Positions 50,313 through 54,849 of a stretch of DNA of 64,000 nucleotides are shown here, in pieces (position 1 is the first letter of the stretch; each line of letters starts with the position of its first letter). The notes below the pieces were generated by a model. That model worked only from the letters and a program-made list of their open reading frames with translations. It searched no databases and was not told the DNA's origin. The stretch is from Pyxicephalus adspersus (Eukaryota; Chordata; Amphibia; Anura; Pyxicephalidae): NCBI RefSeq assembly GCF_032062135.1, contig NC_092859.1, positions 124,493,806 through 124,557,805 on the forward strand, read 5' to 3'. The position numbers were made by a program, and so were the translations under genes.

Positions 50313-50562
50313 TAAGGCTGCATACACAAAAGGGTGAGGGATGAATGAACAAGTGCTGTAGACACCATTCTGCTCTAGGGAAAGGGGAGGGGGGGAACCT
50401 GAACAAGCGGCACCCTGCAGTGCCTGCCTCCTTTCACCTGTATTGCAGTCATTCATCGTTAGATGACATAAGTGTTCTCTGTACGCATATCAGATTCTTA
50501 ACAGAGATTAGCCCAACCGTTCATATCAGACAAGAATCATCTGACTTGTATAGATAGCCTAA
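50313..50562. mobile_element. Decayed Harbinger-type MITE
   Basis: TAAGGCTGCATACACA at the left and TTGTATAGATAGCCTAA at the right are mutated forms of the AGCTGCGTACACAC ends. The body shares the GGGGAGGGGGG tract, AGCGGCACCCTGC and a C-rich segment with the sharper copy at 53239-53569. Confidence 0.65.
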
Positions 50563-51052
50563 GGGTCAAATATCTACATGTGACCCTTGCATATCCGGGT
50601 AGGCACCATGGCATTTGTGAGATCCACATTAGCGGGTAGTTTACCACTTGATCTTGTAAAAATGTGTAATATATGTATAAATGTATATTATATGTATAAT
50701 GTAAAAAAGTATAATATATAAATGTAAGAACATCTCCAGCAAGTACAGAAAATACTGCATTTCTCGCAAGATGAATATACTGGGGAACGCATTTTTTGTT
50801 GAGTTAAATCTTACACTTGTTTTTTTACTAATTTTTTGGTGGTGAATTTAGAAATTATTCCAGTTTTTTTGCTTTCACATCCAGGTTTTACAATACTGGG
50901 TACACACATTTCTGTCAAAAAACATACTAATTTTACATTCAATGAAAAAATATTGAAATATTAACTTGAATGTACTGCTTATTTAGTTTTTAATGTTCAT
51001 ATAAAGAATTTAAACTTAAAGGTAAACATCTGAAAATAATTTGGGTAGGCGG
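50563..51052. other. AT-rich non-coding DNA
   Basis: No features. Could include the 3' flank of the broken gene on the minus strand. Confidence 0.4.
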
Positions 51053-51510
51053 TTAAAGTAAAAATTTACTCTTATAGATTTTCCTGGAGTGTTCAGTTTT
51101 AGGACAATCCCGCCGGATGCTCCAACAATAGTCAGCCATCATATGTACATCCCATCTACCCTGATACCCTCCTTCCCTGACCTTCAAATCTTGGTGGAAT
51201 TGTTCACCTTGCTCATCACTGATTGCACCAAGGTTTTCCAGGAAGTTAGAAAGATGGCTATGCGGAAAACGCACCTTGATGCTCATATTGCAATCAAGTA
51301 TTTTGTAGCGTTCCAAAAGTTTCTGGACAATTTCTGTGTAATTATTTGCTCGTGTGTTTCCAAGAAAGTACTTGCCAATGGCTTTGAATGATAACCAAGC
51401 ATTCTTTTCGACTTCTGACGTTGTCCTAATTAAATGTTCATCTTTGATGAGCTGCCGTATCTGTGGACCATCAAACACACCGGCCTTTATTTTTTCAAAT
51501 GACAGGCTAG

Positions 51511-52595
51511 ATAATTTTCCTTGTTTTGTTTATGTTCATTTTGATAAATCACCAATTTAGACTTAAATTCTAATCAGGTGCCACATCCCAGATAATAATC
51601 TTAGTATGTATGTGGAAATTCGAGTTGACAGGACTTTTTAGGCACCAAAAATGTGAAAAAAAACGTAACTTTTATTTTCTCCATAAAAAATATAAACATT
51701 TTTTTAAAAACAATTTATGAAACAGTAAATGAGTGTACAGTAAAACAGTATATTTCAATTGCATAATCTCACATATATGACATTATAAGGGTCTCACACT
51801 TGTAACATTTTGACGAGTTTCACTGACTTGTCCGCTTCTTCAGGAAACAGTTGTAATGACTGGTGGCTTGCGATTGACATCAAACAACACTATAAGTGGA
51901 TACCGCCTCCATATTGAGCACAGTTAACTGAGTAGAAAGGAACAGTAGCAGTGTAGCAGGACACCAGATCAAAAAGCTTGAAACAGAATATAAAAGCAGG
52001 TACGCCTGCAGGTATCTAATTGGTGATAGGTATTACTTAAATAGTATTTGTCATTTAATTACATGTGATCCCCGATTGTATATATCTATATTAACAGGAG
52101 CCAGTGCATCAGTGGGCAACACATCAAGCCTTAAACATTACCCATGTTATTCTTAGCAATACTAAAAATACATTTATCTATAATTAGAAAAAGTTTTTTG
52201 GTAAAAATTATTTGCCAATACTGCCATGATAGCAAAGTGAATAGTAATCTTTTTCTTGGTTCCTAATAAAAAGTGTAAAAATCTGTGCAAAATCTGGAGG
52301 AGGTATACTCTGATAGTGTTGTTTGATGTCAATTGCAAGCCACCAGTAACCATAACTGTTTCTTGAAGGAGCGGACACAGCCGCGAAACCCGTCGAAAAT
52401 GTTACAAGTGTCAGACCCTAATCATGTCATATATGTGGGACTATGCAATTGAAATATTCTTTTTATTGTACGCTCAGTCCCTGTTTCAGCATAAATTGTT
52501 TTTAAAAAATGTTATATTTTTAATGGAGAAAATAAAAGTTACGTTTTTTTCATATTTTTGGTGCCTAAAAAGTCCTTTCAACTCAAATTTCCACA
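51511..52595. mobile_element. Element with 300-bp inverted repeats, inserted in the Cys-rich gene
   Basis: The left arm 51611-51910 (TGTGGAAATTCGAGTTGACA onward) and right arm 52296-52595 (ending CAACTCAAATTTCCACA) are inverted repeats for about 300 bp; each includes TTGACATCAAACAACACTAT or its inverse. GACAGGCTAG occurs at 51501-51510 and 52596-52605. On the minus strand it falls in codons for the SLS of a continuous protein segment, so it is the target duplication or close to it. On the left, 100 bp of unrelated sequence lies between the duplication and the arm, perhaps a second insertion. There is no coding region. Superfamily unknown; a 9-10 bp duplication would suit a Mutator-like element. 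Confidence 0.8.
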
Positions 52596-53238
52596 GACAG
52601 GCTAGGAAATGCCAAAATGAGGTACTTGAAACAGTCTCTTTCAGTTGGCAAAGCATTAAAGAACTGTTTCATCAGACCTAGTTTCATGTGCAGAGGTGGC
52701 AGTATAATATTCTCTCTATTAACAAGTGGCTCATGTAAAATGTTTTGATCACCTGGTTTTAGGGCAGATCATTGAGGCCAATTCCTTTCCACCCAAGCCA
52801 CCCACTGCCAAATCACTCAACTCATGCTGATCAAATCCCTTACAAACAGAATTCTCCTCAACGTCAAACTCCCCATGATTGTTGTCACCTAGTTCATAAC
52901 CATAATCATGTTCTTCAAGAGAGAGTAATGTAACGAAAAACGGAACTGGGATTTCATCTGAATGAGCCACTGGGGGTATAGCCAGCTGATGGTAGACTAG
53001 GATACTCTGTTACATTTATTTTTTTTGTTATATCCTGAAGTTTTCACAATATAAATGTAACAGTCACTGAAATGATCTCCTGGCTTTCGCCAAACCATAA
53101 GTATATCAAATGGCATCTATCACGTGTCCCCTTTGTTTACATCAGTAAACCCTCGACACACTGTTTACACACCTTATGAGGGGTCCAAGACTTATCTTGA
53201 TCATCAAGTTTAACTGTAAAATATGCCAAATTGGCTTA

Positions 53239-53569
53239 AGCTGCGTACACACCTGCAATTTTTCTCGTTGGAAAGGATCTTTCACGATCCTTTCCAACGA
53301 GAAAAGACTGCACGATGCATGAACGATGCTGTACATACAGCACCGTTCATGCTCTATGGAGAGGGGAGGGGGAGAGCGACGGAGCGGCACCCTGCTGCGC
53401 GCTCTGCCCTTCCCTTTCATTAGGATCGGTCGTCGTCCATCGTCCATGGATCCGCCAGGACGGTCGTCGGACGATGGACGACGACCGACTGTACACACGG
53501 CAGATTTTCGCCCGATAATTGGCCGATACCGATTATCGGGCGAGAAAAATTTCCCGTGTGTACGTAGCT
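53239..53569. mobile_element. PIF/Harbinger MITE with TTA duplication
   Basis: TTA at 53236-53238 and 53570-53572. The ends AGCTGCGTACACAC and GTGTGTACGTAGCT are inverted repeats. Inside are further inverted pairs (CTCGTTGGAAAGGATC with GATCCTTTCCAACGAG; GTCGTCGTCCATCGTCC with GGACGATGGACGACGAC). It shares ends with the transposase-bearing element at 57495-58501, so it was probably mobilised by that family. It is inserted inside the broken Cys-rich gene. 331 bp. Confidence 0.95.
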
Positions 53570-53694
53570 TTACTCTACAAATGTGCTGATGTTTGCTCTT
53601 TGACTGGGAATGATGAAACTGCCACAGATAACAGATAACAAAATGAATCAGGGTTGTTTAGGCACTTACGACGAGAAACAGCAGAGCCAGACAT

Positions 53695-54849
53695 GATCTG
53701 AAAGAAAGAAAATATGTGTGTAAGTAGAAAAGTAAATTTTGCTTATTCACTAGGTAGAGCAGTGCACAACTTCTAACCACACTGTCTTGCATGTAAATAA
53801 ATAGCCTATACAAATCCACGCTACAGTAATCGCAATAATAAAAGCAGTAGGGAAAAAATTGCAATCAAATACAATAAATAAGTAAAACCAGTTTATCTTC
53901 AAGCAGAGAGGTCCATTACTTTGCTTTTATGTTGACAACGTTTCAAAAGCTTATCTATGTTAAACTAACTTGTGCAAATATGATCTTACTATATTGCTTG
54001 TGCTGTTTAAATACTGTTCTTCAATAAGTAGTAAGTAAAAAGGACAGTGAATGTGAACAATTAGAATGGTCTGTATGCTAGGCCTTACAAAGATGAATGC
54101 TCCTGAACATTGATCTTTGCACCTTAAACTTACATTTTTCAGTAATTGTGAGGGATACTTGTCAGGCATCAGCATGCTGTTTGCTTTTTAGAACCAAAGG
54201 GAAACCATCATGCATTTGCTTTCTAAATAGGATATTAAAATGCAAGTTTTAAATGAAAAGATATATGTATAGTACTAATACTGTGCTGTGCTGTATTTTC
54301 AGGTTGCTTTTACAGGCATCCAGCATTCCAGAAAACAATACTAACAATACAAACTACCTTCCTATTACACACCAAAAGGTCCAGCCTGTTTGCACATTGG
54401 TCTGCCTTTGTATTAAACTTATAACCAGAATGATAACAAAACTGCACTACCAAAGATATTCCCAACCTAAGCTTTTGAAGGTTAATGGGAATAAAAGAAA
54501 CCGAACTGCTGTCTAAGATAAAGCAAGTGAGGAAGCATTTCATGCCAAGAAAAAGTAACAAGGGCTAACTTAAAGCCCCCGGAAGTTTACTTTAAGGTTG
54601 CTCATAGAGCCAGAACTCCCAAGTTTTGGAGTGTAAGTTGAGCTGCAATCTTGCTCCTGGTCTTACATGACCTCCAGGAAGAAGCATGACATTGGCACCT
54701 TCCTACCGGACCTTAGCGATATCTGTAGGCACATGGTGAGCAAAAGGAGCTATGTGGATTAAGCACAGAAATAGGCAGGACAAGACCTGTTGGGAGCAAA
54801 ATCACTAGTAGTAGGCATGCCTCAAGAGTGTAGTAGTGTATGTAAATAT
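53695..54849. other. AT-rich non-coding DNA
   Basis: A + strand stretch from a TGTATTTTCAG acceptor-like site (54301) is open for about 70 codons to a stop at 54516, but its composition is not protein-like. Not called. Confidence 0.4.

Follow-up and report, generated by a model that had tools for sequence, protein, structure and literature searches.

The question raised by positions 51053-53694 of a 64,000-nucleotide stretch of the Pyxicephalus adspersus genome (contig NC_092859.1; the whole stretch is called the window here) is what kind of protein lies broken up on its minus strand. The original prediction, made from the sequence alone, saw in it an unnamed Cys-rich family outside any known transposase and the best candidate for an undescribed system. 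We arrived at another answer: with a probability of roughly 0.9, what lies here is the decayed remnant of a Chapaev3-type DNA transposon that can no longer move, a member of the CMC(T) clade (CACTA-Mirage-Chapaev-Transib). The assignment rests on the element ends, the target site, the set of motifs, the protein length and the predicted RAG1/Transib fold, which are as published for this group. This reading turns the candidate undescribed system into a transposon type already known and leaves the finding largely ordinary.

Using full-length relatives as tblastn queries, we recovered the interrupted protein blocks on the minus strand throughout and in a single consistent order, so they do join into one broken protein as predicted:

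53673-53632, minus strand: first block, amino acids 6-19 of P0344 (E 0.048; E 0.008 with P0320)
53265-53015, minus strand: zinc part with VCKQC, amino acids 38-121 of P0320
52982-52809, minus strand: linker, amino acids 132-194 of P0320 (4e-17)
52795-52538, minus strand: PPLHMKLGLMK part, amino acids 350-435 of P0344 (3e-18)
51514-51059, minus strand: C-terminal part, amino acids 412-564 of P0344 (5e-46; 3e-51 with P0337)

The weak first block was accepted because of the DNA alignment of window 53858-53570 to L009, another copy in the genome (87.5 % identity, E 5e-101; 85.5 % to copy L015). The cysteines at the start, CLNNPDSFC, are spaced C-x7-C and not C-x8-C as first described. The second Cys pair (VCKQC, at about 53172-53158) and the C-terminal block with EQGEQFHQD and MMADYCW, within the open frame 51056-51529, are present. 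All blocks lie inside 51053-53694, but the transposon remnant is wider, running from 53858 to 50778 on the minus strand, and its own parts are the following:

53570..53858, minus strand: 5′ part with untranslated region, pyrimidine tract and AG before the ATG, and the coding start with CLNNPDSFC (DNA identity to L009 and L015)
52806..53237, minus strand: N-terminal coding part with the remaining ZAD-like zinc domain (VCKQC) and linker, frame broken (tblastn up to amino acid 194 of P0320 and P0337; 84 % DNA identity to L009)
52805..52806, minus strand: point where about 461 bp are deleted (positions 824 and 1286 of the L009 element meet)
52597..52805, minus strand: core coding part with the LH motif, PPLHMKLGLMK (tblastn; 86 % DNA identity to L009)
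51053..51510, minus strand: C-terminal coding part ending in the stop codon; it holds MMADYCW and EQGEQFHQD, the latter with the last catalytic Glu (open frame 51056-51529, 332 homologues, tblastn)
50778..51052, minus strand: 3′ untranslated part and 3′ terminus, closing ...GCGTTCCCCAGTA (most other copies ...CAGTG; copy alignment)

At the DNA level the window copy is mostly 84-88 % identical to L009 and L015, with 96 % over a single 28-bp piece, and 77-89 % identical to L028. Its first 110 bp or so, including the terminal repeat, are lost: five of six upstream comparisons scored below the maximum of 100 shuffles, and the exception, with L018, was on the other strand and scored 43 against a shuffle maximum of 42. 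The deletion removes amino acids ~195-349, and with them the C(2)C pair and both catalytic Asp residues, while in the H(4)H motif Arg replaces the first His (VRFPHSHL). Because the 5′ end and two catalytic residues are lost and two other elements have been inserted, this copy cannot move or make enzyme, and it had rightly been called dead.

Copies are numerous in the 1.44-Gb genome. All 150 scored places, the window included, matched (150 scored of 9,872 candidates); none of them is intact, and the longest open frame has 354 amino acids. From the 149 non-window places we examined 20 further copies, chosen by score and long frames and not at random, and the analysis of element ends therefore covers 21 sequences selected with a 3′ query. 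A common 3′ boundary lies mostly ~250-300 bp past the last codons (598 in L027, which was left out of the 3′-end alignment for an insert before its 3′ end). The 3′ terminus is reached by 18 of the 21 sequences, window included, with at most one base unaligned and a score above shuffles (not by L013, L016 and L019). GTG closes 15 of the 17 printed 3′ ends, the exceptions being L012 and the window (GTA). At the other side the element begins CACTGGGGAACAATTTTGAAC..., with CAC in 9 of 11 printed copies (not L023 and L026). Two copies with both ends and no evident large inserts measure 2,237 bp (L009) and 2,219 bp (L028, which contains an N run), and the complete element is by inference about 2.2 kb long with one transposase of ~560 amino acids. 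Five copies with both ends are shortened to 909-1,705 bp; internally shortened copies of this kind are frequent among cut-and-paste elements.

Of the two fates originally proposed, mobile or domesticated, the first is upheld by the ends and the target site. A domesticated gene was rejected, as no long open frame occurs among the 150 scored places; nothing in them points to a host gene that has been preserved. A gene that was retroposed or carried by a retrotransposon would bring 5′ truncation together with a fixed 3′ end, and the 3′ coding part is indeed kept in all 21 sequences while only about half of the others extend over the 5′ part of a full copy, a pattern favoured by selection with a 3′ query. 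However, the short copies L010, L014, L022, L026 and L012 (L012 and L014 being doubtful) retain the 5′ end while missing internal sequence, the element shows inverted ends and 3-bp duplications, and no poly(A) or simple-repeat tail is visible after CCCCAGTG. Since short copies retain both ends, we rejected a retrotransposon origin, which we regard as extremely improbable.

In a search with a 69-nt string from the 5′ end, all 40 scored places (the best of 1,652 candidates) had 99-100 % identity, and 14 were identical over all 69 positions. These 14 of 40 ends are without any difference, whereas ~12-23 % of positions differ between the window copy and those it was compared with; going by the sequences, derivatives with younger ends may exist. 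In most of eight aligned copies a pyrimidine tract and AG stand directly upstream of the ATG and could be the end of an intron.

Target site duplications were counted in 12 copies with both ends. L017 was left out, as its 5′ match (38 versus 36 in 20 shuffles) begins at base 9 and 4.6 kb away; L014 was included, its score of 40 being below the shuffle maximum of 44 but its exact first 19 bases being present; and the ends of L012 are uncertain by 1-2 bases. An exact 3-bp duplication was found in 8 of 12 copies (TAA, TTA, TAG; L012 reads ATA) versus 3.2 in shuffled pairs (P 0.0014), and without the doubtful L012 and L014 in 6 of 10 versus 2.7 (P 0.012). TAA or TTA stands on the left flank in 8 of 12 copies and on the right flank in 8 of 12, an A precedes the duplication in all 12, and a T follows it in 11. 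Transib and RAG1 duplicate 5 bp of their target, and a 5-bp duplication was seen in none of the 12 copies.

The translated searches returned homologues in vertebrate and invertebrate proteins: 332 for the C-terminal block alone, 3,157 for a relative of 276 amino acids and 2,669 for one of 483, the best 120 of each of the last two being listed. Among the matches listed, the hosts include the frogs Pyxicephalus, Eleutherodactylus and Ranitomeya, the reptile Rhineura and the tunicate Clavelina, and among invertebrates spiders, insects, crustaceans, a horseshoe crab, the leech Helobdella and the sponge Oopsacas. Full-length members have ~560 amino acids (mostly 525-600 among the matches listed). 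The family was predicted to be widespread in invertebrates, multicopy and unnamed, and it is: the matches listed are named 'uncharacterized', 'hypothetical' or 'unnamed', with the sole exception of P0144. This protein of Chionoecetes opilio, named pyruvate dehydrogenase phosphatase regulatory subunit and carrying PF01571, matches the transposase over 99 % of the query and is probably a gene-model fusion. The full-length member P0337 is filed under a Pseudomonadota metagenome bin, probably through animal contamination.

No Pfam family was found at cut-off in the proteins scanned with cut-offs shown, no NCBIfam family at cut-off in the protein blocks, and no match at threshold among PDB sequences searched with the C-terminal block and with a 47-protein profile. 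A scan of the 47 members gave only weak Pfam matches, the commonest to zf-AD. Viral contigs searched with these two queries gave 2 and 5 pattern matches, none confirmed, and a virus's own gene was rejected. The uninformative names and the missing database families are what a hitherto undescribed family of mobile or domesticated proteins with no relation to known transposases would produce. We consider such a family very unlikely, as the ends, target site, motif set and fold agree with a published group. The Chapaev3 reading instead explains a large set of 'uncharacterized' animal proteins (the 3,157 and 2,669 matches), none of which shows a Pfam family of its own among the matches listed, and a Pfam model of this transposase would tidy many annotations.

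The DDE, C(2)C, LH and H(4)H residues are each conserved in 108 or 109 of 109 aligned relatives, the catalytic residues in P0344 numbering being D263, D317 and a last Glu at 513 or 516. Structure prediction of the relatives, as originally suggested, gave a core fold modelled as RAG1/Transib-like over ~350-370 residues, at 10-15 % identity in the structural alignments. In the best matches of the model, Transib and RAG1 score almost equally; other HzTransib entries score just 11.8-12.9. An intact transposase would dimerise, perhaps via its N-terminal ZAD-like zinc domain, and bind the CACTGGGGAAC... element ends. An RNase H-fold core (D263, D317 and Glu 513 or 516) with a RAG1-like zinc site (C(2)C, H(4)H) would then excise the element, and insertion at A|TWA|T would leave the 3-bp duplications.

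For Chapaev3, the available text of PMC4079192 gives TWA duplications between A and T, and credits Chapaev with the termini CAC and GTG and with the motifs C(2)C, LH and H(4)H; Garfield_BM is 2,289 bp long with 556 amino acids, Merrow and Garfield have two exons, and Garfield_MB, a Chapaev3, sits in an insect bracovirus as a passenger transposon. The hallmarks of the element, whose blocks were first thought to lie outside any known transposase, are those published for Chapaev3. DUF1280 (PF06918), the Pfam family assigned to Chapaev in the part of PMC3985635 consulted, matches none of the 47 members at E <= 1 (a search of the frog genome also gave none, but no control genome responded), and the element is therefore filed under Chapaev3 rather than Chapaev proper.

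Several points weigh against this placement. It was made by hallmarks and not by a family profile, a tree or comparison with reference sequences; the silence of DUF1280 counts here too; in 9 of the 21 sequences, including the window, no 5′ end was accepted; 4 of 12 copies have no exact duplication; and the target is rich enough in A+T for shuffled pairs to agree 3.2 times, the modest contrast with shuffles being due to the narrow target site itself. EnSpm/CACTA, according to the portion of PMC12730594 available, likewise has CAC ends and 3-bp duplications. An alternative home for the element would be a different CMC(T) branch, be it EnSpm/CACTA, Transib, Plavaka or one without a name. According to the same portion of PMC12730594, C(2)C and H(3-4)H are clade-wide and join EnSpm, Mirage, Chapaev, Transib and others into CMCT, with CA..TG ends in most and CAC..GTG in EnSpm. 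The near-equal structural matches and the missing DUF1280 would also suit such a branch. We find this improbable: the A|TWA|T target is described from Chapaev3 and the LH motif from Chapaev, the length is like that of Garfield_BM (PMC4079192, available text), Transib is opposed by the lack of 5-bp duplications, and EnSpm/CACTA by Transposase_21 (PF02992), which matches 0 of 47 members at E <= 1.

The part that deserves specialist attention is the ZAD-like N-terminus. Its zinc cysteines, C-x2-C ... C-x2-C, are invariant in the relatives with a residue there (109 aligned): C17 in 95/95, C20 in 96/96, C61 in 107/107 and C64 in 107/107. The zf-AD model (PF07776) stays below its Pfam cut-off of 28 bits, with 15, 16 and 17.3 bits in P0344, P0320 and P0336 and no match in P0337 and P0231; at E <= 1 it matches 23 of 47 members, the best with E 7e-4. 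By sequence, this N-terminal domain is similar to a module that has until now been known from gene regulators of insects. THAP and BED factors took their domain from transposons. We suggest tentatively, at somewhat less than even odds, that Chapaev3 transposases start with a genuine ZAD that shares ancestry with the ZAD of insect C2H2 factors and vertebrate ZNF276. If so, either the ZAD-ZNF family got its dimerisation domain from a transposon or the transposon got a host ZAD; a very large class of insect transcription factors would have a testable origin, and Chapaev3 would be a ZAD-bearing cousin of RAG1. A literature search including the available parts of PMC9810180, PMC7655104 and PMC10547256 found no link between ZAD and a transposase.

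The window copy itself is interrupted by two other elements:

53238..53569, no strand: 332-bp inserted element that splits the N-terminal zinc domain and has inverted ends of 30 bp, 87 % complementary (inverted repeat; L009 contiguous across the point)
51511..52596, no strand: 1,086-bp inserted element with inverted arms of ~315 bp (~86 % alike; inverted arms, junction letters, L009 contiguous)

The 332-bp element has inner palindromes and a 78 % identical stretch in L009 (7153-7407), and short pieces of it are also present in L015, L024 and window 50340-50418. The 10-bp direct repeat CTAGCCTGTC lies on both sides of the 1,086-bp insert, and this site is single in L009. The arm of the larger insert begins TGTGGAAATTTGAG..., and ~120 bp of extra sequence lie beyond its 3′ arm.

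Regarding earlier descriptions, a literature search by title and abstract start found no report of an amphibian Chapaev3. The words 'amphibian', 'frog' and 'Xenopus' each have 0 mentions in the main text of PMC4079192, as has 'Chapaev' in those of PMC12822217 and PMC10794172. PMC11008031, in its available part, concerns a hAT element.

Compared with known systems, the frog element is most like Chapaev3 (Merrow, Garfield, Conan) as portrayed in the available text of PMC4079192, with which it shares the A|TWA|T target, CAC/GTG ends, a length of ~2.2-2.3 kb and a ~560-amino-acid transposase, as well as DDE with C(2)C, LH and H(4)H, a spread over invertebrates and vertebrates, and deleted derivatives. 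The published size of 2,289 bp and 556 amino acids compares with 2,219 and 2,237 bp in the frog and mostly 525-600 amino acids in the relatives. Chapaev sensu stricto (DUF1280) and EnSpm/CACTA (Transposase_21) fall in the same clade by motifs and ends, going by the excerpts available, but neither Pfam family matches the members. Unlike the ZAD of Drosophila C2H2 factors and ZNF276, the frog-family domain scores below cut-off, is attached to a transposase and comes without a C2H2 array. Chapaev3 is distantly related to RAG1, an enzyme of the human immune system. The predicted core fold is like that of RAG1, Transib and ProtoRAG (BbRAGL), with C(2)C and H(3-4)H motifs common to both in the sources available, whereas the frog element lacks the 5-bp duplication, carries one gene in ~2.2 kb and has another N-terminus.
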